Assembly: GCF_900090285.1 (NCBI RefSeq)
Contig: NZ_LT607754.1
Span: 3,250,001-3,314,000, forward strand
Source of the DNA: Micromonospora inositola
GTDB lineage: Bacteria > Actinomycetota > Actinomycetes > Mycobacteriales > Micromonosporaceae
DNA length: 64,000 bases
Direction: 5' to 3'
In this document: one piece after another, positions 49,779 to 62,062 of the stretch
How positions within the stretch are numbered: the stretch's first letter is position 1
Layout of the letters: each line of letters opens with the position of its first letter
Position numbers and translations under genes: made by a program
Notes under the pieces: model-generated
Seen by the model: the letters and a program-made list of their open reading frames with translations, nothing else
The model's database searches: none
Told to the model about the DNA's origin: nothing

Positions 49779-50674
49779 GCAGCAGGAGCGCCACCGCCGA
49801 GAACCGCCGCGGCGACGGGCCGGCCGACCGCCGGATGACGATGGACGACGGTCCCGCTGTTCCGGACGCCCCACCCGCCGGCGACGGGACCCCGGAGGTG
49901 GCCCCCGACCTGCGCCTGGCCGGGCTGGCCGTGGCGGCCTGGCTCGCCGCGCTGGCCGGGCTGCACCTCACCGCCGCGGGGGCGGCCGCGCTGGCCGCCG
50001 TCGCCGCCGGCCTCGCCGCCCCCGTCGGCGTCCACCTGCTCGGCGTCCTCGGGCGTCCGGCAGCTCCGGTCCGCCGGCACGGCTGGGTCGTCGTCGCCGT
50101 GCTGATCGGAGTGGTCTGCGGTGCGAGCGCGACCGCCGCCCGCCTGGTGGTCCGCGATGCGGCCCCGATCCGGGAGCTGGTGGACGAGCGGGCCCTGGTC
50201 ACCGTGGAACTGGTCGTCCGCGACGACCCACGGCCCGTCCGTGGCGCCGCCGGCCGGCCGGCGACCCTCCTGGTCCGGGCCGACTTCGAACACCTCACCG
50301 GTCGGGACGGCCAGCGGGTGGCCGGACCGGTCCGTGGCCTGGTGCTGGCCACCGGCTCGGCCTGGCGGGGGTTGCTGCCCGGGCAGCGGGTGGGCGCGCA
50401 GGGGCGGTTGACCGCGCCGCGCGGCGGCGACCTGACCGCCGCGGTGCTCACCGTGACCGGCCCGCCGACGCCGCACGGCCCGCCGCCGTGGCTCCAGCGC
50501 GCGGCCGGCACGCTCCGCGCCGGCCTGCAACGCGCCTGCGCACCCCTGCCGGACGAGCCGGGCGGTCTGCTGCCCGGTCTGGTCGTCGGCGACACCAGCC
50601 GGCTGACGCCCGCCGTCGAGGCGGACTTCCGGGCCACCGGCATGACGCATGTCATCGCTACCCTAAGGCGGTGA
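49775..50674 (+). pseudogene. comEC: comEC 5' half, truncated by element insertion
   Basis: 299 codons from the GTG at 49775, overlapping the comEA stop. It holds hydrophobic segments (LRLAGLAVAAWLAALAGLHL and others) and the OB-like region (ALVTVELVVRDDPRPV, GLLPGQRVGAQGRL). It keeps the ComEC motif start LPGLVVGDTSRLTPAVEADF and RATGMTH, then departs from homology into VIATLRR and a TGA at 50672-50674 supplied by the inserted element. The complementary 3' half begins THLNAVSGSNVAIV at 60455. Ten kb of unrelated DNA separates the two. Confidence 0.93.
50643..50646. other. attL crossover core (TGAC)
   Basis: In comEC the sequence across the left edge is CACCGGCATGACGCATGTC. The TGAC at 50643-50646 is also found at the right edge in the same codon phase. 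The next base differs (G at left, C at right) and CA follows in both, so the exact crossover dinucleotide lies within or next to TGAC. Short cores of this kind are normal for serine integrases. Confidence 0.75.
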
Positions 50675-52035
50675 CTACCGCCGCGATCTACGTCCGCATC
50701 AGCTCGGACGACACTGGGGAAGGGCTCGGCGTGGCCAGGCAGGAAGCCGAGTGCCGCGCCACGGCCGAACAGCTCGGATGGACCGTCACAGAGGTCTACC
50801 GGGACAACGACATCAGCGCCTACTCCGGCAAGCTCCGGCCAGGGTATGAGCGCCTGCTGTCCGACGTGGAGGCCGGCACCGTACGCGGCCTGATCGTCTG
50901 GCACGCGGACCGCCTCCACCGCTCTCCGAAGGAGCTGGAGCGCTTCATTGACCTGGCCGAGCGCACCCGCCTCCAGGTCCAGACCGTCCAGTCCGGCCGG
51001 GTGGACCTGTCCAGCCCGGACGGCCGGATGCGTGCCCGGTTGCTCGGCACTGTCGCCCGGTACGAGAGCGAACACAAGTCGGCCCGTATCCGGCTCAAGA
51101 TGGCGCAGAACGCGAAGGACGGCAAGCCGCACGGCGGACACCGGCCGTACGGGTGGGAGCCGGGCCGCATGATCATCCGGGAGAGTGAAGCTGCCGTCAT
51201 CCGGGAAGCCACGTCGCGCATCCTGGCCGGGGAGCCGCTGCGCTCGATCTTCCGTGACCTGAACGCACGCGGCCTCCACAACGCGAGCGGGAAGCCGTGG
51301 ACCCACCCGACGTTCCGTAACGTGCTGCTCCACGCTCGCCACGCCGGACTCCGCGAGCACAACGGCCAGGAGGTGAGCGTGGCCGCGTGGCCGGCGATCA
51401 TCCCGCCGGAGACGTGGCGCGCCGTGCGCCGGGTGCTGAACGATCCGGACCGGGTGACCACTCCAGGACGCGGGGGCCGGTTGCACCTGCTCTCCGGGAT
51501 CGCGGTCTGCGGCGTGTGCGGCTCGCCCCTGCGCGTGGGTCACAGCAGGTCCACGGAGGCGTACCGCTGCATGGCGTCCGCGTGCGTGAGCCGCCGCCGG
51601 GACCGGCTGGAGGAATACGTGGAGGCCGTGGTGATCGCGCGCCTGAGCCGCGCGGACGCTGCCGCCCTGCTCGCCCCGGAGGATGACGGGGGAGAGCGCG
51701 AGCGCGCCGCTCAGGCGGCGGAGCGGGTACGGCAACGGCTGGACGACGCGGCGGCTAGCTTCGCGTCCGGCGTGATCACGGCGCGGCAGCTAGCCACGAT
51801 CACCGGGCAGCTCCGGCCAGAACTGGCCGCGCTGGAGGCTGCCGCCGCGCCTCCGCCGGACCGCGCCTCCGTGCTCGGGGAACTCGTCACGGCCGGGGAC
51901 GTGGCGAAGGCGTGGGAGGCGCTGAGCCCGGACGCGCGCCGGACCGTGGTCCGCCTGCTCATGGAGATCAAGGTGAGCCGGGGCCGGCGCGGACCGGGTT
52001 TCAGCACGGACGGGATTGAGATCGTGTGGCGCTGA
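50671..52035 (+). CDS. Large serine integrase/recombinase
   Basis: 454 residues from the GTG at 50671, chosen because the catalytic start AAIYVRISSD follows directly. Arg9 and Ser11 match the RxS active site, and VWHADRLHRSPKELERFI, DGRMRARLLGTVARYESEHK and the Recombinase domain (GKPHGGHRPYGWEPGRMIIR) follow. A zinc ribbon (AVCGVCGSPLRVG and YRCMASACVSRRR) and a coiled coil near the end complete the large-serine-recombinase layout. The GTG overlaps the TGA closing the comEC 5' piece (GTGA). It inserts and, with a directionality factor, excises the element at comEC. Confidence 0.96.
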   Translation: MTTAAIYVRISSDDTGEGLGVARQEAECRATAEQLGWTVTEVYRDNDISAYSGKLRPGYERLLSDVEAGTVRGLIVWHADRLHRSPKELERFIDLAERTRLQVQTVQSGRVDLSSPDGRMRARLLGTVARYESEHKSARIRLKMAQNAKDGKPHGGHRPYGWEPGRMIIRESEAAVIREATSRILAGEPLRSIFRDLNARGLHNASGKPWTHPTFRNVLLHARHAGLREHNGQEVSVAAWPAIIPPETWRAVRRVLNDPDRVTTPGRGGRLHLLSGIAVCGVCGSPLRVGHSRSTEAYRCMASACVSRRRDRLEEYVEAVVIARLSRADAAALLAPEDDGGERERAAQAAERVRQRLDDAAASFASGVITARQLATITGQLRPELAALEAAAAPPPDRASVLGELVTAGDVAKAWEALSPDARRTVVRLLMEIKVSRGRRGPGFSTDGIEIVWR

Positions 52036-52041
52036 CCAAGG

Positions 52042-52230
52042 TCACAGACTGGTCGGGTCCCGGTACTCCGCGCACTGCCGGTTGCGGCACTTCTCCACGG
52101 GCTGCCACTGGTCCGTGTCATCCAGGCTGCCCGCGTTGGCCCACCCGAGTTCCCGCCGCTGGCCACAGGACGGGCACGGCTTGGGCTTGTACAGGTGTCG
52201 GGTAGCGCTGGTGAAGGTAGGGGTGTCCAT
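52042..52230 (-). CDS. Small zinc-ribbon-like protein
   Basis: 62 residues from ATG 52230. Two Cys pairs, KPCPSCGQRRE and KCRNRQCAEY, are spaced as in a treble-clef or ribbon zinc site. The ribosome site is weak. It converges on the integrase, with 6 nt between stop codons. Small proteins next to serine integrases often serve as recombination directionality factors, and this is one candidate; function is not established. Confidence 0.6.
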   Translation of the reverse strand: MDTPTFTSATRHLYKPKPCPSCGQRRELGWANAGSLDDTDQWQPVEKCRNRQCAEYRDPTSL

Positions 52231-52305
52231 GTGGCGGACCCTAGCCACTGGAGCATGAGCAGGGGAGCCGACGCGCCGGGTTTCTCCACTGCGCATTGTC
52301 GAGTG

Positions 52306-52506
52306 TCACTGCGCGGCGGAGCAATCCACCCGGTGCGCCTTGACCACCCCGACCGCCCACGCGAGCATCCCGCAACCGTCGTCCCGGCACTGCGCGCAGC
52401 GGCCGGTAGCACGGTGCGGGGTGGCCGGCTCGGAGTGTGCCGTGATCACGCGCTTAGCCGTCCAGAGCACGAGAGCCGGCGTGATCGGTCCGTCATCCAT
52501 GGGCAT
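52306..52506 (-). CDS. Small conserved-looking protein with CxxC
   Basis: 66 residues from ATG 52506, preceded by GGAGGGA. It has a hydrophobic helix (ALVLWTAKRVITAH), a Cys pair in TGRCAQCRDDGCGMLAW and a Cys near the end. Not recognised. It is expressed leftward from the divergent control region at 52507-52659. Confidence 0.6.
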   Translation of the reverse strand: MPMDDGPITPALVLWTAKRVITAHSEPATPHRATGRCAQCRDDGCGMLAWAVGVVKAHRVDCSAAQ

Positions 52507-52583
52507 GGTCGGTCCCTCCGCAGAAACGGCGGACCCCGGGCACGGAGACTAGTCACGTACCCGGGGTGCCTTCGCCACCCACC

Positions 52584-52650
52584 GTGACCTGTCACACCCG
52601 TTAGTGTCAAGAGTGACAGGTGTCGGATGTGACAGTCTCGCGTTGCATAG
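52584..52650. promoter_or_regulatory. Operator-like GTGACA/TGTCAC cluster
   Basis: The divergent gap before the AlpA-like gene holds an inverted repeat CCTGTCAC (52588-52595) / GTGACAGG (52613-52620) and a further GTGACAG at 52629-52635. The spacing between the last two half sites is 16 nt. Repeated half sites between divergent genes are typical of binding sites for the element's own regulator. Confidence 0.6.
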
Positions 52651-52659
52651 CGTCGGATC

Positions 52660-52869
52660 ATGGTCCGTAGGTTGTACGGCAGCGCAGAGCTACAGGAGCG
52701 CCTACAGGTGTCTCGTGCTCGGGTCGTACAGATCACGAGCCGCCCGGACTTCCCGGAGCCGTTCGATCGGTTGGCCGGGGGAGCGGTGTGGCTCGTGGAA
52801 GACGTGGAAGCGTGGATCGCGGAGCACCGGCCGCACCAGGCGCGCGGAGCCGACCCGGACGAGTGCTGA
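52660..52869 (+). CDS. AlpA/MerR-like helix-turn-helix protein, putative excisionase
   Basis: 69 residues. The DNA-binding part is LYGSAELQERLQVSRARVVQ with ITSRPDFPEPFDRLAGGAVW and VEAWIAEHRP, the winged-helix form of AlpA and excisionase-like proteins. It lies downstream of the operator cluster and ends in a strong palindromic terminator. In satellites and prophages such proteins control integrase or excision. Here it could be the directionality factor or a regulator. Confidence 0.8.
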   Translation: MVRRLYGSAELQERLQVSRARVVQITSRPDFPEPFDRLAGGAVWLVEDVEAWIAEHRPHQARGADPDEC

Positions 52870-52879
52870 GACAGCGAAG

Positions 52880-52905
52880 GGCCCGGACCTGATCAGGTCC
52901 GGGCC
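52880..52905. terminator. 26-bp perfect palindrome terminator, copy 1
   Basis: The palindrome GGCCCGGACCTGA / TCAGGTCCGGGCC lies between the convergent AlpA-like and 52921-53178 genes and can end both transcripts. It belongs to a 45-bp cassette that recurs at 53266-53311. Confidence 0.88.
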
Positions 52906-52920
52906 GTTCGTCCAGGTGGC

Positions 52921-53178
52921 TCAGCGGCTAGCGATCTTCTCCAGCCAATCGGAGATGTACCGCGCGTGCGTGCCGACCCCGAAGCCACTTTGATCTTTCA
53001 AGGCAACCTCCACGCCGCTGACTGCGTGGCGCAGCTCGCGGATCTCGTCGGCCACGGAGAGAAGCGCGTAGACCAGCGCTTCATGGCGGTGTTCCTCTGC
53101 TTCGGCGGCCGTCACATCATCTGAGTGGGCATCCCCGAGCAGGTCCAAAACGATCGTGCGCGCGGTTGGCTTGGCCAC
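52921..53178 (-). CDS. Small helical protein, unknown
   Basis: 85 residues from the GTG at 53178, chosen because GGAGGAGA lies 5 nt upstream; the frame opens further back at 53262 without a ribosome site. The chain is helical (ALVYALLSVADEIRELRHAV), with acidic EAEEHRHE. Not recognised. Its stop codon runs straight into the copy 1 terminator cassette. Confidence 0.65.
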   Translation of the reverse strand: MAKPTARTIVLDLLGDAHSDDVTAAEAEEHRHEALVYALLSVADEIRELRHAVSGVEVALKDQSGFGVGTHARYISDWLEKIASR

Positions 53179-53265
53179 GGCGTCTCCTCCAGTGATCCGG
53201 CGGTCCCGTGATCCTGACCGTCCGGACCGGTGCCGGTGGTCGATCTGTCGGGTGGACGACACAAC

Positions 53266-53291
53266 GGCCCGGACCTGCTCAGGTCCGGGCC
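53266..53291. terminator. Terminator copy 2 of duplicated cassette
   Basis: 12-bp stem GGCCCGGACCTG / CAGGTCCGGGCC with a 2-nt spacer, followed by GTTCGTCCAGGTG as in copy 1. It stands directly behind the 53307-54410 gene on the reverse strand. Confidence 0.88.
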
Positions 53292-53306
53292 GTTCGTCCA
53301 GGTGAC

Positions 53307-54410
53307 TCAGGCGCTCTGAGACGCCTTCGCTTTCGCCACCTTCGCAGCGGCACGCTCCAGGGGCGCGAGGGTCGCAGCGGCGCGCTCGCGCGTCTCCCTG
53401 GCCGCCTCCACCGCGTTGCCGGCCAGGAAGGACCCGGCGGAGAAGAGGCGTCCCGCTCCGGGGTCGTCCACGGTCTGCCGTACCCGGTCGATCTCCATCA
53501 GGTCCGCGATCGTGGCGTCCAGCTCCCCGATCGCGGCGTCCAGGCGCGCCAGCCCGTGAGCGGCCTGATCCCGGAGGTACGTCACGTACTCGTCCCGGCG
53601 CTCCGCGATACCGGCCGCCACCTCGTGCTGCACCTTCTCCACGGCATCCCGGGTACCCGCGGCCACGGCCTCCGCGGTGTCCGCCGCTTCCTGTAGGTCG
53701 CGCCCGAGTCTCGAGACTTCCTCGGTGTCCAGCGCCTTCCCGGCCATGGCCGCTTCCGACGCGAGCCGCCGCACCGTGGCCGGACCCTCCATAGCCGCAG
53801 TGCGAGCCGCGTGCGCCTCACTGGCGAGCCGGTCCGCGTGCTCCGCCATGCCGGCCAGGCGCGTGAGATCCGCCCTCGTGGCCGCGTGGACGTGCCGGTC
53901 CGGGATGGTGCCGACGCCCCGGACGGACAGCGGCTCACCGGTCCACACGCGCGGAGCCTTGCTACCGGCCGGAGCAGGCTCCAGGATCCCCGGCTTGATC
54001 GGGAACGGCTCCGTGAGGGTCCACAGCTCGTCCATCTGGCCGGCCTGCGCCATGTCCCGAGCCTGCCGCTCGCCTTCCGCGTCCGCGAGCGGGCACTGGC
54101 TCGCGTTGGCCTGCTCCTGCGCCGGACCGTGCTCCGTGGCAGTGCCGTGACCCACGATCACCACGGCACCCTGCCGGAAGATCGGGTGCACGAGCGCCCC
54201 GGACGTCTGCATGCCGCTCGCCCCGTTGTAGCTAAACGACTCGGGGGCGCAGGTGCACCCGTCCGGCATGTCCCCGGACTCTGCGGCGTAGGCGAGCATC
54301 GCGGCCAGGATGGTGGAGGCACTGGCGCTGTGATGCTCCCTCGTGTCCACGGTCCAGACGTGGAGGGACGGGGAGTACCGCACGCGATCGTCGGTCGGAT
54401 AGATGGTCAT
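53307..54410 (-). CDS. Unknown protein with N-terminal compact domain and long coiled coil
   Basis: 367 residues. The N-terminal 100 residues start TIYPTDDRVRYSPSLHVWTV and include CTCAPESFSYNG and VVIVGHGTATEHG. Residues about 170-367 form a long Ala/Arg/Glu-rich coiled coil (EHADRLASEAHAARTAAME, RDLQEAADTAEAVAAGTRDA). The ATG overlaps the stop codon of 54407-54661 (ATGA), and together with the TerS-like gene they form one leftward unit. Scaffold-like or structural interference roles can be imagined from the coiled coil, but nothing shows this. Confidence 0.75.
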   Translation of the reverse strand: MTIYPTDDRVRYSPSLHVWTVDTREHHSASASTILAAMLAYAAESGDMPDGCTCAPESFSYNGASGMQTSGALVHPIFRQGAVVIVGHGTATEHGPAQEQANASQCPLADAEGERQARDMAQAGQMDELWTLTEPFPIKPGILEPAPAGSKAPRVWTGEPLSVRGVGTIPDRHVHAATRADLTRLAGMAEHADRLASEAHAARTAAMEGPATVRRLASEAAMAGKALDTEEVSRLGRDLQEAADTAEAVAAGTRDAVEKVQHEVAAGIAERRDEYVTYLRDQAAHGLARLDAAIGELDATIADLMEIDRVRQTVDDPGAGRLFSAGSFLAGNAVEAARETRERAAATLAPLERAAAKVAKAKASQSA

Positions 54411-54661
54411 CGGGAAGCCTCCATGAGTCGGGTCCAGGCGGCTTCCGCCGCGTCATCCGCGCACCCGGGGCAGTAGCCACGGGGAGCGGCCTTGCGCTTG
54501 CTACGGGCCGGCTCCGGGGCCGGCTCGCCCCACTGCTCCAGGTATGAGCGCGCCTGCCGTGCCACGAGATCCGCGGCCAGGTGCTCCAGGTCCGTCACCC
54601 GGGACGGGATCAGGGGTCGGCGGTGGATCCGGCACTTCCCGAGCGCGCCCGGGGTAGCCAT
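54407..54661 (-). CDS. Small Cys-containing protein
   Basis: 84 residues from ATG 54661. A helical middle (DLEHLAADLVARQARSYLEQ) leads to a basic segment ARSKRKAAPRGYCPGCADD with CxxC, and another Cys lies in GKCRIHRR. It sits 20 nt after the TerS-like gene and overlaps the next gene by 4 nt. Not recognised. Confidence 0.65.
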   Translation of the reverse strand: MATPGALGKCRIHRRPLIPSRVTDLEHLAADLVARQARSYLEQWGEPAPEPARSKRKAAPRGYCPGCADDAAEAAWTRLMEASR

Positions 54662-54681
54662 GTCCGGCCGGGCGAGCGGGC

Positions 54682-55053
54682 TCACTGCGCGATTCCCTGT
54701 TCGATGCTGACTACGAAGGCAGCCGGCAGGCGCAGCCCGTAGAGCTGGACGCGCTCGCGCTCCAGGGAGAGCAGCGTGTTGAGCACCCGCACGGTGTCCT
54801 GCGTGGACAGATCCGAGTCCAGCAGCGTGTTGCAGCGGCGCATCCACCCGTTAATCCGCGCTTCCGACTGCCGCCGGAGGGTGTCCGCTTCCTGTGCCGG
54901 GATGCGCTGGAGCGCGGCCTGTACGCGTCGTGAGGCTGTCGCACGGCCGATCTCCAGGCGCTCCGCGATCACGTCGATGGAGTGTCCGGCGTTGCTCAGC
55001 TCCAGAGCCCGTATCTCCTGCTCATGGCGCTTTCCGGCTGTCATTCGGGGCAT
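54682..55053 (-). CDS. Helix-turn-helix protein resembling a small terminase subunit (TerS)
   Basis: 123 residues from ATG 55053. The N-terminal HTH reads LELSNAGHSIDVIAERLEIG with RATASRRVQAALQ. The rest is a helical hairpin, RQSEARINGWMRRCNTLLDS and TVRVLNTLLSLERERVQLYG, ending in the ERxxLxGL pattern common at the C-terminus of actinophage small terminase subunits. A resolvase-like or sigma-like DNA-binding role is the alternative. If TerS, it would bind DNA to direct packaging. It heads the leftward operon 55053-53307. Confidence 0.6.
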   Translation of the reverse strand: MPRMTAGKRHEQEIRALELSNAGHSIDVIAERLEIGRATASRRVQAALQRIPAQEADTLRRQSEARINGWMRRCNTLLDSDLSTQDTVRVLNTLLSLERERVQLYGLRLPAAFVVSIEQGIAQ

Positions 55054-55080
55054 GTCTCATTGTATCAAGGTTTGTATCAG
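55054..55080 (-). promoter_or_regulatory. Promoter-like region with direct repeats before the TerS-like gene
   Basis: Two TTGTATCA repeats (55060-55067 and 55072-55079) lie 12 bp apart. On the reverse strand a TACAAT -10-like box (forward 55059-55064) stands 5 nt before the ATG, which would make the transcript leaderless. The AT-rich patch stands out from its surroundings. Confidence 0.55.
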
Positions 55081-55123
55081 ATCGGGCGCATCATAATACC
55101 GCTTATGGTGGGGGTGATCCGGC

Positions 55124-55585
55124 GTGGTGGACCCGATCCGCAGCATGAACCTGAACGCGGAGAAGACGGATCGTGCGCGGCCGGGGGGAGCGGGCGCTGT
55201 CGCTCGTGCGGCCCGCCGGTTGTACGCGGTCCGGAAGCGCCCCGGCATGTACATCGGTTGCAAGCCCCGTTCAGGCTCCCCTTCTAGCGCATCCACCGCT
55301 GAGGTAGGTCCCTGCCTCCCGTGGTCTCTGACCTGGGCAATCGATGCCGCTGGAGGTACCTCCGCTTGCCCGAAACGTCCACTCCCGACGACGACTAGCT
55401 CACAGAGTCCGGGGTACGAGCGCCGTTTTTCAGACCGAGCCCGCAAGATATGCGCACCGGGTGCCACGGCTCTGTCGGGTCGCTGTGATTCCGTAGAGCT
55501 TGCCCCCTGCGGGACCCGCCTACCGGCGGCAACGTGGGCGTGCAGCCGCAGAGAAGACATCCGCGCGGCTAGCACGTTGGGTTAG
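55124..55585 (+). CDS. Frame with a GyrB-like N-terminal motif, possibly a gene fragment
   Basis: Up to 153 residues; ATG 55145 (MNLNAEKTDRARPG) is an alternative start. Residues about 30-47 read ARRLYAVRKRPGMYIG, which matches the conserved RKRPGMYIG segment near the start of the DNA gyrase B / ParE ATPase domain. The downstream text (about 48-153) is not GyrB-like in any frame and looks non-coding. It is either a short decoy-like protein carrying only this strip, or a relic of a gyrB-type gene. The ATP-site residues (E/N and GxxGxG) are absent. Confidence 0.4.
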   Translation: MVDPIRSMNLNAEKTDRARPGGAGAVARAARRLYAVRKRPGMYIGCKPRSGSPSSASTAEVGPCLPWSLTWAIDAAGGTSACPKRPLPTTTSSQSPGYERRFSDRARKICAPGATALSGRCDSVELAPCGTRLPAATWACSRREDIRAASTLG

Positions 55586-55680
55586 TGGCAAGGCGGAGCG
55601 CCTTAGGTGCGACGCCCTGCCGCACGGTCGGGCGGGACGGAGTTGTACGCCCCGGCCATTACAGTGCTTTGAACGTGGCC
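55586..55680. other. Unassigned stretch inside the element
   Basis: Together with about 55290-55585 this holds no convincing gene. A small hairpin AAGGCGGAGCGCCTT is at 55590-55604. An ATTACAGTGC patch and TTGAAC near 55661-55674 could be promoter pieces for the following gene. Confidence 0.4.
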
Positions 55681-55749
55681 GATGACCCGCAGTCGGGGGT
55701 CATCAAGGCGGCGGGTTCCCGGGGACTGCCATCCCCGGGGCCGCCTTGA
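55681..55749 (+). promoter_or_regulatory. Two overlapping hairpins in the 5' region of the 55808 gene
   Basis: Hairpin 1 is GATGACCC / GGGTCATC (55681-55704). Hairpin 2 is TCAAGGCGGC plus CCCGGGG against CCCCGGG plus GCCGCCTTGA (55703-55749). The end of the first and the start of the second share 2 nt, so the two may compete. This could be a terminator pair or a switch in the leader. Confidence 0.5.
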
Positions 55750-55807
55750 CAGGTCGCGTCTCACCGAATGTCCAGCCATGAACATGCAAGGGGAGGAACC
55801 ACAACCG

Positions 55808-56062
55808 ATGACCACGGTACCGAGAGGGTCTGAGCAGCACCAGAGCGGCACCGGCAACGGGCCGGAGAAGTTCCTGATCGGGGCGCTTGTCCTGATCTTC
55901 GTGGTGGCGCAGGCCACGATGGTCTACACCCTGAAGCTCGCTGACGACCCGAGCAGCGTTGCCCCGGTGGTGGTGCCGGCCAGCAGCGCCATCTCCCTGG
56001 CCGCGATCAGCGCCATCGCGGTGGTGCTGCGGAAGCGGCCGGGTCGGTCGCGTCGGTCCTAG
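55808..56062 (+). CDS. Small two-pass membrane protein
   Basis: 84 residues from ATG 55808, chosen over 55778 because GGGGAGGA lies 9 nt upstream. A polar N-terminus precedes two hydrophobic segments (FLIGALVLIFVVAQATMVYT and SSAISLAAISAIAVVL) and a basic end, RKRPGRSRRS. Not recognised. A small membrane protein on a mobile element might act in superinfection or host membrane effects, which is speculation. Confidence 0.7.
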   Translation: MTTVPRGSEQHQSGTGNGPEKFLIGALVLIFVVAQATMVYTLKLADDPSSVAPVVVPASSAISLAAISAIAVVLRKRPGRSRRS

Positions 56063-56137
56063 CTGCGGGCCGGGTTGGTGGAGCCGGTGCCGAGTTCATC
56101 GGTGCCGGCTTCACCAACCTCGTCAACATGCACATGG

Positions 56138-56355
56138 ACACGGGACACGCGGAGACGTGGACAAGATCATGGACAAGGCCACGGACACCATGGACAGGCG
56201 GACACGGACGGACACGGACACGCCGACCGTGGACAAGATCAGGACCCCGGACACGGACAACTGTCCGGACACCGTGGACAGTGGACACGGACGGACACCC
56301 GGTGTCCGGACAGCGCGGACAGGCTGGACAGGACAGCCGGACACGGTGACCCAAT
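56138..56355. repeat. GGACA repeat field, left block
   Basis: About 21 copies of GGACA, mostly GGACAC, GGACAA or GGACAG, lie in 215 bp on one strand, with two TGTCC copies in the opposite sense. Spacing is irregular (6-16 nt). All reading frames through it are low-complexity and mutually similar, so it is not a gene. Confidence 0.9.
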
Positions 56356-56372
56356 AGCCGGCCCGGACATGT

Positions 56373-56540
56373 CCTGACCTGCGGTTATGGCTCCGGGTGA
56401 ACTAGTTCAGGGTGTCCTAGGTCCGGCCCCATACCTGCGTTGACCCGGGAAAACGGCTCCGCACGACCTAGGACACGTAACCTAGGTTCGGCCCCATACC
56501 GCCCCTGACCTGCGGTTACGGCTCCGGACAACCTAGGTTG
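56373..56540. repeat. 65-bp iteron-like array with CTAG palindromes
   Basis: Two and a half units of about 65 bp. Shared blocks are CTGACCTGCGGTTA, GGCTCCG and GGCCCCATACC. Each full unit carries a pair of CTAG-centred palindromes 14-15 bp apart (CTAG at 56402, 56417, 56468, 56482 and 56533). Units 1 and 3 share 24 bp with one mismatch. The array sits between the two GGACA blocks and near the replication gene, as an origin would. Confidence 0.85.
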
Positions 56541-56720
56541 CCGGTGGACACGCAGACACCCGAGCCGCGGACATGTCCACGGACACGCGGACAAGATCAG
56601 GACACGGACACGCGCCCGGACGGGAAGTGTCCAGGCGCGTTGTCCAGGCTGTCCGTCCTACGTGTCCTGTCCGGACACGGTGGACAGGACGCGCTTACGA
56701 CGGACGCAGCGCGGACACGA
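56541..56720. repeat. GGACA repeat field, right block
   Basis: About 9 GGACA and 6 TGTCC copies in mixed orientation, continuing the motif of the left block past the iterons. The block ends about 35 nt before the stop codon of the HEPN-like gene. Confidence 0.85.
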
Positions 56721-56753
56721 CTGCCGGCCGACCCGGGAAGTGTGCACCCCGCA

Positions 56754-57251
56754 TCATCCCCAGGGCCGTGGCCCCATCTGATACTCGGCCACCATCCGCG
56801 CGAGGTGAGCATCCGATCCGGCGTCATCAATCACCCGACCAGCGTCTTCCAGCTCTTCCCTGGTCGCGGTTACCGCGTGATCACCGATGAAATCGACAGC
56901 CCCACGGATGTCAGGCTCAGCCTCGTCGATGATGACCGTGCTCGCGTGGACGAAACGGTTGCGCAAGACGCGGGCCCGATCAGCCTTGTCGAGGAAGCTT
57001 CGCAACCGGTCGGCAACCTCTTGCTCAATGACGCCGTCGTCCTCCCTGATCGCCAGGCATAGCCGGCACTGCTCGATTATCCGGACGAACGTCATCCTTT
57101 TGTTGGCCCGTCGCGCCGCGTCCGGCGACGTCATCCTCGGTGTCTGAAGCCAGGCGAGCAGGCTAGCGATGTTCACCTCCAGCCGCGCACCGCCGAGGAC
57201 GATCCGGCCGTACAGCTCCCTCACCTCTGGATCGTTCACGTCGAGTGGCAT
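56754..57251 (-). CDS. HEPN-like protein with RNxxxH motif
   Basis: 165 residues from ATG 57251; ATG 57290 is an alternative, and neither has a strong ribosome site. The chain is helical: VRELYGRIVLGGARLEVNIA, RMTFVRIIEQCRLCLAIRED, and DKADRARVLRNRFVHASTVI. The last holds R97-N98-x3-H102, the RX4-6H active site of HEPN ribonucleases found in toxins and abortive-infection proteins. It ends the leftward replication operon. The motif is seen; nuclease activity and an anti-phage role are inferred. No antitoxin partner (MNT or other) is adjacent. Confidence 0.65.
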   Translation of the reverse strand: MPLDVNDPEVRELYGRIVLGGARLEVNIASLLAWLQTPRMTSPDAARRANKRMTFVRIIEQCRLCLAIREDDGVIEQEVADRLRSFLDKADRARVLRNRFVHASTVIIDEAEPDIRGAVDFIGDHAVTATREELEDAGRVIDDAGSDAHLARMVAEYQMGPRPWG

Positions 57252-57307
57252 CCCGACATGGTCGCTGACTACGGAGAGAGGCACCAGCATCAGGAGGGGA
57301 CCATGGC

Positions 57308-57607
57308 TCACCGGGCCAACTCCAGGTGGCGCCGGTACGCGGACGACTGCCGGCCACGGAGCGCCGTCACCCACTCCGGCCGGAACGGCTCCGCCGCGAT
57401 CCGGATCCGCTCGTACTCATTGCCCCGGTGACAGTGCGAGATCCGCTCGGTGACGTCCCCGGGGGAGTGGTCCGGCTGCTCCACGGTGCCGGCTCCGTGC
57501 CAGTGCAGGCCGTTGCACGGCTCGCAGGGGACCACGAGGGACAGGGGCGTACCGGTGGACAGGTGGCGGTTGCTGGCGGCCAGGTAGCCGGTGACGGTCT
57601 GCGTCAT
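57308..57607 (-). CDS. Cys/His-rich small protein
   Basis: 99 residues from ATG 57607, preceded by GAAGGAAA. PCEPCNGLHWHGAG and ISHCHRGNEYERI supply four potential metal ligands, suggesting a zinc ribbon or a reduced HNH-like fold without the catalytic Asn. It is followed by the HEPN-like gene in the same direction. Function unknown. Confidence 0.65.
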   Translation of the reverse strand: MTQTVTGYLAASNRHLSTGTPLSLVVPCEPCNGLHWHGAGTVEQPDHSPGDVTERISHCHRGNEYERIRIAAEPFRPEWVTALRGRQSSAYRRHLELAR

Positions 57608-57690
57608 GACCGTTTCCTTCGTGGTCAGGTTGATCGGCCAGGGAGGGATGACCTCCCCCCGCCTTGCTTTTCGATTGCTCCCCCACCGGC

Positions 57691-57800
57691 CCCGGTGACC
57701 TCCCCCCTCCCGCTCCCCCTAGAGGGCGGGGGAGCGGGGGAGGTGGAGGTGACCTCCCCCGCTCCCCCGGGGGGAGGTGGGGGGACGTGGGGGGAGGTCA
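57691..57800. repeat. Polypurine/polypyrimidine inverted-repeat tract
   Basis: Runs of C (CTCCCCCCTCCCGCTCCCCC) and G (GGGCGGGGGAGCGGGGGAGG) alternate twice over about 110 bp, with GGTGACCTCCCCC and GGGGGGAGGTCAC at the ends. Large stem-loops and quadruplex forms are possible. It lies directly behind the replication gene stop and ahead of the 57308-57607 gene, a place for transcription attenuation. Confidence 0.75.
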
Positions 57801-59930
57801 CTGCTCGGCGCTCTCTCCCTGGCCGCTCTGGCCGTCCACCTCCGGCGCGAGGCGGTGGAGCTTGGCGTTGCGTAGTCCCCGCTCCACGAGCACCCGGCCG
57901 GAGTCCTCCAGCCACGCGAGCGCCTTGCCCACGTCTCCCTTGCGGACGTGGGCGCGTCTCTCAATTTCGGCCAGGGACAGCGGCTCCGGGCGACCGTCCA
58001 GGGCAGCGACCACGGCGGCCACGGGCTTACGGAGGTGGCTCGGGATCGGGTTGGTGTCGTCCGCCTCGTCCTCGTCCACGAACGGAGGCCACAGGATCAG
58101 GCTGACCATTTCGCCGCTCGTGGCATCCCCCACGAGATCCCCGATGTGGGTCAGGTTGGCCTCGTCCGCCTTGCCGTACGGCCGGAGTCCACCGTTGCGA
58201 TCCTTGGTGATCAGGACCTTAGAAACGCCCTTGGAGCCGCGTCCCCACGTCTTCGTGACCTCCATCGTGAACATCACGCCCGTGAGTCCGGCCAACTTGT
58301 GCTGCGCCCCGATGCTGTACCGGCCGCGCGCGTCCCGGTTCTTCACCACGTGGTCAGTGGTGAGCGTGGCCGTCCCGAGGGTCAGAGCCGGTTTCACGAG
58401 CGCCTGACGCCACTTCGCGATGTCGTCCTGACTCATGATGTCCTGACCCATGAGCGCGGCACCTTCGGTCCATCCGTCGTACACGAGCAGTTCCGCCGGA
58501 CCGTCCGGGAAGGTGAGCAGCGCGAGCACGTCACCGGCCCGCGGCGCGCCTTCCGGCCGGACGTAGCGGAACTGTCCGGATGCCGGCCGGAGCCGGTCCG
58601 CCAGTACGCCGAGATCCAGCAGGCGACCGACCACCGTTGCCGCGTCATCCTCGAAATCCACGTACAGCACCCGGCCACCGGAGAGCAGCACGTCCCGGGC
58701 GCACATGAGCGCGAACCACGTCTTGCCGCTCTCCGGCTCACCGGCCACCGCGTGCTCTTTGCCCCGGTAGAGCAGCGCCACGCCGTCCTGACGCTGCGCT
58801 AGCTCCGGCACCACCCGCACGCGCTTCCCGGAGAGCACGTCCGTGAGGTCATCAGCCGTCCAGCCCGGCGCGGCCTGCTCTCCCTGGCCGGTGCTCTCCA
58901 GGTGGTCCGGCACGACGGTCCACGGGTCCGCCTTGCCGTCCCGGATGCCGTTGCGGATCTGCGTGTCTGCGTCCCGGTGCGTCCGCTGGTATCCGTTGGC
59001 CTGCGCCGCGTCCAGGAGGGTCCGGTGTGCCTCCGGCTCCGTCATGAAGCCGGCAGCCACGCAGCGACCCGCGATCACCGCGACACCGGCCAGGAGGTTG
59101 CTCCGCCCGTTGCCTTCGGTGGTCAGCGACCGGAAGCGGTCCACCTGCTCCGCGAAGGTGGCGAGCCCACCGGCACGTGACTTCGTGCCAGCGCCACCGA
59201 TCAGCATGGACGCCGGGGGGAACGGGTCCGCCACCGTGCCCGGCGTGCTCACCGGAGCCGGCTCCGGCTCGGTCAGGAAGGCGAGCCACGCGGCCGGTAG
59301 CTCCGGCAGCTCCGTCCGCTCCGGCACCCGGCCGCTCGGCTCCCCGTCCGGTCCGTACCACCGGTACGGCTGCCCGGTCCCGGGGTGGATGCTCGGCGCT
59401 ACCACGGCGTACCGGTGGCCGCGGTGGATGATCTCCACGTCCTCCCCGTACGCCTTGCGGAAACGCTGCTCCGCGTCGGCCAGGTCGGTACCGGTGCCGG
59501 GGACGTGGAAGAAGTGGATCCGGGACGGCTGCCCGGGGCCGCGCGATGTGCTGGACCATGTGGCCGGCAGCTCCCCGAGGTCCGCTACGGCCTTTGCCAG
59601 CGATTCCGCGCCGCGCTTGTCTCCGTAGCTGTCCACGTCGATTCCGACCGTGCCGGCCATGCGGAGCCCGATGTTGTGCGCTGCCTCCGGACCCTCCGTC
59701 CAGGCGTGGAGATCCGGGCCGGAGACGTTACGACCTTCCCTGCCGGTGTATCCCCGCGGCGGCCACTTCTTTTCCTTGACCGGGATCGGATTGGCCCAAC
59801 CGGCGCGCCAGTACGCCATTGCGTGCGAGGCGTACGGACCCGAATTACCAACTTCCGCGTTAGAATCGGAGGCGGTGGTCATAGTGGGAGCGCCTTGCTG
59901 GGGAGCGGGGCGCTTTTCCATGTCGGTCAT
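57798..59930 (-). CDS. PrimPol-RecA-like helicase replication protein
   Basis: 710 residues. The N-terminal bifunctional primase/polymerase domain (about 30-215) shows HNIGLRMAGTVGIDVDSYGD with the metal pair D98 and D100, GQPSRIHFFHVPG, and HRYAVVAPSIHPGTGQPYRW. A linker leads to a RecA/RepA-type ATPase: Walker A AVAGEPESGKTWFALMCARD (about 394-413), a Walker B-like AELLVYDGW, and TTDHVVKNRDARGRYSIGA. A winged helix (LSLAEIERRAHVRKGDVGK) ends the chain. This layout occurs in replicases of satellites, plasmids and integrative elements. Translation is coupled to the small gene before it (ATGA). Confidence 0.9.
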   Translation of the reverse strand: MTDMEKRPAPQQGAPTMTTASDSNAEVGNSGPYASHAMAYWRAGWANPIPVKEKKWPPRGYTGREGRNVSGPDLHAWTEGPEAAHNIGLRMAGTVGIDVDSYGDKRGAESLAKAVADLGELPATWSSTSRGPGQPSRIHFFHVPGTGTDLADAEQRFRKAYGEDVEIIHRGHRYAVVAPSIHPGTGQPYRWYGPDGEPSGRVPERTELPELPAAWLAFLTEPEPAPVSTPGTVADPFPPASMLIGGAGTKSRAGGLATFAEQVDRFRSLTTEGNGRSNLLAGVAVIAGRCVAAGFMTEPEAHRTLLDAAQANGYQRTHRDADTQIRNGIRDGKADPWTVVPDHLESTGQGEQAAPGWTADDLTDVLSGKRVRVVPELAQRQDGVALLYRGKEHAVAGEPESGKTWFALMCARDVLLSGGRVLYVDFEDDAATVVGRLLDLGVLADRLRPASGQFRYVRPEGAPRAGDVLALLTFPDGPAELLVYDGWTEGAALMGQDIMSQDDIAKWRQALVKPALTLGTATLTTDHVVKNRDARGRYSIGAQHKLAGLTGVMFTMEVTKTWGRGSKGVSKVLITKDRNGGLRPYGKADEANLTHIGDLVGDATSGEMVSLILWPPFVDEDEADDTNPIPSHLRKPVAAVVAALDGRPEPLSLAEIERRAHVRKGDVGKALAWLEDSGRVLVERGLRNAKLHRLAPEVDGQSGQGESAEQ

Positions 59931-60130
59931 CGCGCGGCCACCGCCGGAGCGAACACGGCTCGCAGCTTGGCCACCTGATCGGCGGACAGGTCCGGAGCCC
60001 GGTTCACCACTGCGGCCACGGCACTGGCGAGGTGCGCCTGACTGGCGATTTCCTTACGCCGGTCCGGGGAGAGGCTAGCGGCGCGGGCGCGGCCGGCACG
60101 GGACGCGCGCTCGGTGGTGGACATGGGCAT
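59927..60130 (-). CDS. Small basic protein upstream of the replication gene
   Basis: 67 residues. ERASRAGRARAASLSPDRRK with EIASQAHLASAVAAVVNRAP resembles short actinobacterial proteins of the ribbon or helix type that precede replication genes. It overlaps the PrimPol ATG by 4 nt. It may aid or regulate replication initiation. An alternative start is ATG 60124. Confidence 0.6.
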   Translation of the reverse strand: MPMSTTERASRAGRARAASLSPDRRKEIASQAHLASAVAAVVNRAPDLSADQVAKLRAVFAPAVAAR

Positions 60131-60309
60131 TGGATTGCTCCACTCAACAAAGGGATTGTGAGTGGGCTCTCTGTCGGCGCTAACCGATTCCTAGCCCTGC
60201 CGGATGCGCGCTCCGGAACGTGCGCCATACGAGGGGAGCCGCATTCCGGTTTGCTAGCCGGCCTAGCGTCCGCCGTGGCGGAAGGGTCCGTTCCCTGCTC
60301 TGCCTCCAA

Positions 60310-60396
60310 TGTAGCAAGCCGCTAACGCAATCCGCTATTACTAAATTGTTAGTAAGTCTCCATTCCTACGCAATTCTTAGTGTGTTCTTAGTAAGT
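60310..60396. promoter_or_regulatory. AT-rich control region at the right end of the element
   Basis: The inverted repeat TTACTAA (60338-60344) / TTAGTAA (60349-60355) has a 4-nt loop, and direct repeats TTCTTAGT (60374-60381) and TTCTTAGTAAG (60385-60395) follow. This is the most AT-rich stretch of the element and lies upstream of the leftward replication operon, so it probably holds its promoter and operator, and possibly arms of the attachment site. Confidence 0.65.
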
Positions 60397-60452
60397 GGGT
60401 GCCCGTGAGCAGGGCAGACACCGAAGGTTCTTAACCCGCCTTGGTTGCGGTG

Positions 60453-60456
60453 TGAC
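60453..60456. other. attR crossover core (TGAC)
   Basis: The right edge reads GTTGCGGTGTGACCCACCTG; TGAC at 60453-60456 matches the left core and sits in the same codon phase. Joining the two restores ATG ACC CAC CTG AAC in comEC. Confidence 0.75.
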
Positions 60457-62062
60457 CCACCTGAACGCGGTCTCCGGCTCGAACGTCGCCATCGTGGTCG
60501 GCGCGGTGCTGCTGCTCGCCCGCTGGGCCCGGGCCGGTCCCCGGACGGCCGTCGTGGCGTGCGGGCTGGCCCTGATCGGCTTCGTCATCCTGGTTCGACC
60601 GTCGCCGAGCGTGGTCCGGGCCGCCACCATGGGGGCGATCGGCCTGGCCGCGCTCGCCGCCGGCCGACCCCGGGCCGCGCTGCCTGCCCTCTGCGCCGCG
60701 GTCACCGTGCTGGTGCTGGTCGACCCGGAGCTGGCCGGCGACGCCGGCTTCGCCCTGTCCGTGTTCGCCACCGCCGGGCTGCTGCTGCTCGCCCCCGGCT
60801 GGCGGGACGCGCTGCGTCGTCGGGGCGTACCGGTGGGGCTGGCCGAGGCGCTGGCGGTGCCGGCGGCCGCCCAGCTCACCTGCGGCCCGGTGGTCGCCGG
60901 CATCTCCGGGACGGTCAGCCTGGTCGCCGTGCCCGCCAACCTGCTGGCGGTGCCGGCCATCGCACCGGCCACCGTGCTCGGCGTCGCCGCGGCCGTGGTG
61001 TCGCCGGTCTGGCCGGCGGGAGCCGAGTTCGCCGCCTGGTTGGCGAGCTGGCCGGTCCGCTGGCTGGTGACCGTGGCCGGGTACGGGGCGGGGCTGCCGG
61101 CCGGGACCCTGCCGTGGCCCGGCGGGCTGACCGGGGCGCTGCTGCTGGCCGGGCTCACCGTGGCGCTGCTGCTCGCCACCCGGCGACCGCTGGTCCGGCG
61201 GCTCGTCGCGGTGTGCGCCGTCGCGGTGGTGCTCGGCACGCTGCCCGTCCGGCTGCTGGCCGGCTGCTGGCCACCGCCCGGCTGGGTGGTGGTGGCCTGC
61301 GCGGTGGGGCAGGGCGACGCGCTGGTGCTGCCGGTCGCCGCCGGTCGGGCGGTGGTCGTCGACGCCGGCCCCGACCCGGCCGGTGTGGACGGCTGCCTGC
61401 GCCGGCTGGGCGTACGCGAGGTGCCGCTGCTGGTCGTCAGCCACTTCCACGCCGACCACGTCGGCGGGGTCGCCGGGGTGTTCCGGGGCCGCCGGGTGGC
61501 GGGCGTGCTCGCCCCACAGTGGTCGGAGCCCGCCTTCGGGGTGTCCCAGGTACGCGTCGCCGCACTGGCCGGTGCGGCGGGCCTGCGTACCGCGCCGGTG
61601 GGCTGGAGCTGGCGGGCCGGGGAAGTGGAGCTCGTGGCGCTCGGGCCGCCGTACCCGCTGCGGGGCAGCCGGTCGGATCCGAACAACAACTCCCTGGTGC
61701 TGGCCGCAACCGTGGCCGGGGTGCGGATCCTGCTGCTCGGCGACGCCGAGACCGAGGAGCAGCGGGCGTTGCGGGAGGCGCTGCCGTCCGGGGCGTTCCG
61801 GGCCGACGTGCTGAAGGTCGCCCACCACGGCTCGGCGTACCAGGACCCGGAGTTCCTCGACGCGGTCCGGCCGTCGGTCGCGCTGGTCTCGGTCGGTGTG
61901 GGCAACGACTACGGACACCCCAACCCCGGGCTGCTGACCCGACTGTCCCGCGCCGGCGCCCGGGTGCTGCGGACCGACATCGACGGGGACGTCGCGGTGG
62001 TGCGGGACCGGCGCGGACTGGCGGTGGTGGCCCGCGGCACCCGACCGGGACGGCAGCCGTGA
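60455..62062 (+). pseudogene. comEC: comEC 3' half, displaced by element insertion
   Basis: 535 codons. It begins with the conserved ComEC segment THLNAVSGSNVAIVVGAVLL, runs through some eight further membrane segments, and ends with the metallo-beta-lactamase-like domain (VACAVGQGDALVLPVAAGRA, LVVSHFHADHVGGVAGVFRG, LKVAHHGSAY, NDYGHPNP). The reading frame is intact. An in-frame GTG at 60395 inside the element, and the GTG at 60452, could start translation, but neither has a ribosome site. Joined to the 5' half it gives 825 residues, the normal ComEC size. Confidence 0.93.

Follow-up and report, generated by a model that had tools for sequence, protein, structure and literature searches.

The element described here interrupts comEC in a 64,000-nucleotide stretch of Micromonospora inositola DNA (contig NZ_LT607754.1, positions 3,250,001 to 3,314,000; the whole stretch is called the window below), which is part of a 6.7 Mb single-contig genome. 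It shares features with several described systems, which are outlined here. Phage-inducible chromosomal islands (PICIs), that is the Staphylococcus aureus pathogenicity islands (SaPIs) and their relatives, are small islands with int, an AlpA-type regulator, one or more replication genes and sometimes terS (PMC6092414). The phage-inducible chromosomal minimalist islands (PICMIs) of Vibrio were modelled with a fis site and DUF3987/DUF5906 primases (PMC10803314), and the candidate PICIs of Mycobacterium were defined by a major capsid protein gene and have a serine integrase in one of the four mapped (PMC10654092). The MulchRoom and MiniFlayer satellites of Streptomyces carry a small terminase gene together with TerL, portal and capsid genes and no known primases (PMC10690885), and a survey sees possible satellites in small prophage-like elements of actinobacteria (PMC10023795). 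Actinomycete integrative and conjugative elements (AICEs), finally, carry FtsK/SpoIIIE-type Tra proteins, with a serine integrase in 19 of 144 and Prim-Pol in 40 (PMC3218068).

Judged by its gene content, the comEC element is probably, with a good deal of room for doubt, a PICI-like phage satellite of Micromonospora. Like a PICI it is integrated at a defined site, presumably by its own integrase, is small (9,810 bp), shows no structural or lytic families in the open reading frames (ORFs) scanned and encodes an AlpA-like helix-turn-helix (HTH) protein of predicted regulatory role as well as a predicted TerS homologue. It differs from PICIs, whose integrases are usually of the tyrosine type, in its serine integrase, in a PrimPol and AAA_25 replicase, which belongs to another family but might take over the same task, in its comEC and comM sites and in that no Stl/Rpr repressor was identified in it. 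With PICMIs it shares a minimal content of int, alpA and primase without capsid-remodelling genes, whereas its location in comEC and its PrimPol and AAA_25 domains set it apart, and the main text of the PICMI report does not contain the word terminase. The Mycobacterium candidates resemble it in having an actinobacterial host and, in one case, a serine integrase, but no match to a major capsid protein was found among the window ORFs scanned, which also separates the element from capsid-forming PICIs (cf-PICIs). MulchRoom and MiniFlayer are likewise actinobacterial and have a small terminase gene, yet add TerL, portal and capsid genes to it, and AICEs share integrase and Prim-Pol but differ by their TraB of the FtsK/SpoIIIE type, for which the same ORFs gave no match.

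The sequence-only reading had compared the element to PICIs, and this holds in that it is recurrent, has PICI-like content and shows no conjugation or structural gene in the copies read. The serine integrase, which in that reading stood in place of the tyrosine one of PICIs, is not the novel point, because satellite candidates of Mycobacterium (with capsid genes; PMC10654092) and AICEs (PMC3218068) that have one were already described. We found no description of such an element in Micromonospora in the open-licence literature, the subscription literature lying mostly beyond the search. For this genus of antibiotic-producing actinobacteria there is now a defined set of satellite candidates that bear TerS and have no capsid genes.

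The comEC insertion and its family

The sequence-only reading had comEC split by a 9.8 kb element at a common TGAC, and this is what is found: the element occupies positions 50643-60452, bounded by TGAC at 50643-50646 and 60453-60456, and relatives have empty sites. The 5' frame of comEC runs into the element and ends at a stop at 50674, and the insertion should inactivate comEC while the element stays. The GC content is 68.9% in the element as compared to 75.8% in about 8.5 kb of flanks. The attP arms, read off the element ends, show CCGCCTT in inverted order on either side of the core, which is usual for serine integrases, and no tRNA that could be a target lies anywhere in the window. The main features are listed here; L073, L074, L094 and L095 are loci of genomes G201, G330, G197 and G305, and other L numbers denote further loci compared.

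49835..50646, plus strand: 5' fragment of comEC up to the core, its start codon a guess, continuous with the intact comEC of relatives
50643..50646, no strand: attL core TGAC
50671..52035, plus strand: large serine integrase, 454 aa, with kin of 91% and 85% identity at the same comEC site
52660..52869, plus strand: AlpA/excisionase-like HTH protein, 69 aa (phrog_66, 1.2e-6)
53307..54410, minus strand: 367-aa protein, third gene of the TerS operon, 37-56% identical in L073, L074, L094 and L095
54407..54685, minus strand: 92-aa protein, start conserved in L240, both ends overlapping the neighbours (GTGA, ATGA)
54682..55053, minus strand: TerS-like protein, 123 aa, HTH plus two long helices (phrog_645, 1.8e-12)
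55703..55749, no strand: conserved hairpin TCAAGGCGGC...GCCGCCTTGA
55808..56062, plus strand: 84-aa protein with two transmembrane (TM)-like hydrophobic segments and a basic tail, no family
56130..56720, no strand: GGACA-type repeat array, candidate origin
57798..59930, minus strand: PrimPol and AAA_25 (RecA-like) replicase, 710 aa
59927..60130, minus strand: 67-aa protein overlapping the PrimPol start (ATGA), 68% in L073, 51% in L074, 55% in L094
60453..60456, no strand: attR core TGAC
60453..62062, plus strand: 3' fragment of comEC, 81% to L073 and L074

Database matches bear out the assignments of serine integrase (Pfam Resolvase 4e-30, Recombinase 3e-13, Zn ribbon 1.5e-6), of PrimPol-RecA helicase (PrimPol 1.5e-16, AAA_25 5.6e-7) and of the AlpA-like HTH protein, which belongs with the excisionase family phrog_66 and reaches just 0.016, below the family cut-off, against Pfam HTH_17; it is 83% identical to its counterparts in L094 and L095, 97% to that in L240 and 50-55% to those in L074 and L073. 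The array likewise deserves the description as iteron-like that it had been given, as GGACA occurs in it 33 times forward and 10 times in reverse, whereas shuffled sequences average 3.4 forward copies and reach at most 11 in 500 shuffles, and two 57-nt repeats bounded by CCTAGG lie within it (56416-56537).

The gene set recurs. A search with the integrase found three of 160 genus genomes at an E value of 1e-130 or better, namely the window's own, G201 and G330; L073 and L074 both lie within comEC with the gene order of the window, the TGAC core is within comEC in all three comEC copies, and the closest named integrase relatives are from Micromonospora. The TerS-like profile matched eight of the 160 genomes, five of them strongly (the window's, G201, G330, G197 and G305) and three distantly (G312, G096 and G165), and seven of 300 family-level genomes, five of which were common to the genus search. 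In G197 the same backbone is combined with a different serine integrase (41% identity) and a 468-aa AAA_25 replicase without a Prim-Pol match, and is located in comM, with Mg_chelatase domains in the left flank and dprA to the right. The search for homologues that the sequence-only reading had proposed returned the backbone in comEC (three genus genomes) and in comM (G197). G305 retains TerS, the 367-aa protein, AlpA and the small protein orf66, its integrase match spanning just 150 residues. Two further loci encode tyrosine integrases, together with a D5-type protein in L097 and an AAA_25 protein in L098.

Protein identity is 78-97% for TerS and 37-85% for the 367-aa protein (five members each), 41-91% for the integrase and 26-40% for the replicase (four members each). 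The AlpA-like HTH protein, the TerS operon, the hairpin with the 84-aa protein after it and the 67-aa protein are the stable parts and integrase, replicase and cargo the variable ones. The repeats on the replicase side differ too, being of the GGACA type in the window and L073 and of other types in L074. Such module swapping around an evenly conserved TerS operon offers a handle on what packaging specificity requires.

The hairpin pattern was found in ten of the 160 genus genomes, four of these being element copies (G000, G197, G201 and G330), and its reversed control matched in G181 only. In G265, G162 and G153 the hairpin adjoins relatives of the 84-aa protein, but neither TerS nor the integrase has a match there, and we therefore read these loci as remnants; G162 and G153 also hold AlpA and orf66 relatives, the AlpA being 97% identical to the window's in G162 and 48% in G153, where it is 81% identical to that of L074. 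Seven of the ten matches thus fall in the family or its remnants, while the G175 locus shows no relative and G187 and G282 lie outside the set of loci read. Bases of the inner stem have changed yet are still complementary, and the hairpin is not an ordinary terminator, because no T-run follows it. Rfam gave nothing above gathering scores, low-score matches being treated as chance. The two TM-like segments of the 84-aa protein are present in six of seven copies, and L241 changes frame.

Could the element be a degenerate prophage that has retained integrase, replication and TerS? The presence of TerS and of a phage-type integrase and the decayed remnants of the family in the genus would be in line with this, yet separate species and sites share one compact gene set whose open frames are coupled, remnants of structural genes were not found, and the even conservation of TerS and the backbone suggests selection. 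We regard this origin as very improbable.

The TerS-like protein and its proposed role in packaging

The homology of the 123-aa protein extends beyond the HTH into the C-terminal half, and outside the family the TerS profile matched 11 records, four of which are genes next upstream of TerL in phages or proviruses; this homology supports the view that the protein is a TerS family member. Together with the phrog_645 match, the TerL-adjacent kin place the TerS assignment on firmer ground than the sequence reading alone had done. Of five phage members of phrog_645 examined, two overlap TerL and three are not next to it; the label 'RNase E' of this group was taken as misleading, its members including TerL-adjacent TerS-like genes. 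The predicted fold lends weak support: the AlphaFold2 (AF2) model has a predicted local distance difference test (pLDDT) score of 83.9 and TerS rows are among its VIA-align matches, and in a Foldseek search of the PDB the HTH matches rank first, with regulators such as DeoR best. Pattern scans of viral_contigs gave no relatives of TerS or the 367-aa protein, and the profile found distant TerS kin in two viral loci that had been fetched by the integrase.

Seven of the 11 records matched outside the family do not adjoin TerL, and the host genome is without a TerL of PF03354, the one TerL family searched for there. The former, together with the regulator-like HTH domain, would suit a regulator not involved in packaging, the element then being a self-replicating integrative plasmid or a passive island. 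Since the similarity goes past the HTH to include the C-terminal half, and since unrelated phages and proviruses have relatives that adjoin TerL, we consider this improbable, if less so than a decayed prophage.

The genes for TerS, the 92-aa and the 367-aa protein overlap by a few bases each, which suggests that they are translationally coupled; the 92-aa protein gave no family match and the 367-aa protein none worth naming, Pfam and PHROGs being among the scans. On the satellite reading, a helper phage would induce AlpA, AlpA and Int would excise the element as a circle, and the PrimPol-AAA_25 protein would replicate the circle, starting at an origin within the array at 56130-56720. TerS of the element would then direct the helper TerL to a site on the element, perhaps the conserved hairpin close to terS, and the element DNA would leave the cell in helper particles; from its operon position the 367-aa protein may act in packaging or head assembly. 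From the sequences compared, the family is real, recurrent and compact and the mechanism plausible, helper packaging being the step that we infer. As the att core and the empty sites are known, helper, excision and packaging are directly testable.

Phage side or conjugation side

No capsid, portal, TerL, tail, lysin, relaxase or TraB family was found in the window ORFs scanned, in agreement with what had been noted from the sequence, and two TraB queries gave no match in L073, L074, L094 and L095. Loci holding replicase kin were screened with four TerL and two TraB queries, all counts being lower bounds. Among 14 genome loci at least four had TerL, two of these four coming from one Janibacter contig, and no TraB was seen. 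The 36 viral loci, from a collection selected as viral, gave TerL in at least 11 and again no TraB; one of them, L046, shares match coordinates and identity with genome locus L025. In a third set of 12 loci, ten of the family including L073 and L074 and two plasmids, at least two had TerL and at least two TraB. Because of the lower bounds and unequal query sets the screen favours the phage side only mildly. Homologues of the gene set were found neither solely with TraB nor solely with whole phages, so that the satellite reading stands in this respect. L020, L081 and L082 have AAA_25 or PrimPol kin and TerL in the same locus and are possibly capsid-forming satellites or prophages of Micromonosporaceae.

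The most serious competitor, which we hold to be unlikely, is an AICE-like integrative element whose TraB has been lost, or else a mobilizable element that relies on TraB supplied by a resident AICE. The array would then presumably be a TraB recognition site (TRS) and the 84-aa protein, whose two-TM character is conserved, presumably an Spd-like spread protein. The host genome has 16 FtsK/SpoIIIE matches, some of which may be TraB; AAA_25 kin lie beside an FtsK gene on p-XQ-29-C and PrimPol kin beside TraB in L075, other comEC inserts have TraB or a HerA-like ATPase (see below), and some known AICEs have Prim-Pol and some a serine integrase (PMC3218068). Yet no part of the family is conserved as evenly as the TerS-family protein, TraB was not found in the window ORFs scanned or, with two queries, in the family loci mentioned above, and L074 does not share the GGACA array. 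The motif GACCCGGA, which we take to be the pSVH1-type TRS motif, has one copy in the window element, none in L073 and eight in L074.

Competence genes as targets, and accessory genes

A 448-bp probe taken from comEC to the right of the site found matches in 55 of 61 genus genomes, and 30 of these loci were read. Twenty-five are uninterrupted across the insertion point; the nearest of them, L108, is 97% identical in DNA over the probe and has the sequence that attB should have, GGCATGACCCACCTGAAC. The element family described here occupies two, the window and G330, and in three more (L115, L126 and L134) a different insert lies about 15-23 bp deeper in comEC, the serine integrases of these inserts being 29-38% identical to that of the window. 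Since other inserts with different serine integrases sit there too, comEC is a repeated target, and it seems to be a common one of conjugative and satellite-like elements.

It has been proposed that mobile elements knock out competence genes and so escape deletion by transformation (PMC4774983), in a report whose main text does not contain the word 'Actinobacteria'; the comEC and comM insertions extend this idea to actinobacteria. We put forward, as a tentative view that may well prove wrong, that a TerS-encoding satellite lineage of Micromonosporaceae has specialised on competence genes (comEC and comM, with different serine integrases), swaps replicases and origins freely, competes with AICE-like and tape-measure elements for nearly the same base pairs of comEC and disables the uptake route for its own deletion.

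Among the other comEC inserts, that of G144 (L137, 839-14461) is an element of about 13.6 kb, about 18 bp from the site studied. It encodes a serine integrase, a protein resembling primases and a free-standing tape measure protein of 582 aa (phrog_305, 4e-57), and the few ORFs scanned included none for a capsid. L138 has a TraB-type FtsK protein (5e-8) and L139 a HerA/FtsK-like ATPase. In G249 an element (L077, 7333-18328) is flanked on its left by the beginning of comM (ChlI domain, 1e-21); it encodes a serine integrase (44%), an AAA_25 relative and a tape measure protein of 903 aa. Micromonospora may have satellites with a tape measure gene alone. A second serine integrase gene lies on the opposite strand left of the comM fragment of L094 (2006-4190), and two elements may therefore be stacked in one comM.

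The remaining features of the window element are small or accessory.

52042..52296, minus strand: orf84, doubtful small ORF, sole match 32% over 53 aa in L082, no family
52306..52506, minus strand: orf66, small protein with Cys residues, 61-78% in L073, L094, L095, L240 and L241
52877-52929 and 53263-53315, no strand: 53-nt direct repeats with inner palindromes, flanking orf113
52921..53262, minus strand: orf113, accessory protein with kin in L095, L240 and L241
56754..57374, minus strand: 206-aa accessory protein with an R-x4-H motif, no relative in the element loci compared
57308..57607, minus strand: 99-aa conserved protein, 62% in L073 and 59% in L240

The 206-aa protein had been called HEPN-like from its R-x4-H motif (RNRFVH), a motif that we take to be linked to HEPN; as its scores were at chance level at most in Pfam, PHROGs, NCBIfam, PDB sequences and PADLOC, this label was given up. 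PADLOC, run on nine proteins (six from the window) for phage-interference genes, gave chance-level scores only (0.018 and 0.03). The orf66 protein, without a family match, is 40% identical to its relatives in L074 and L100, and the position of orf113 between palindrome-containing direct repeats is a cassette-like arrangement.

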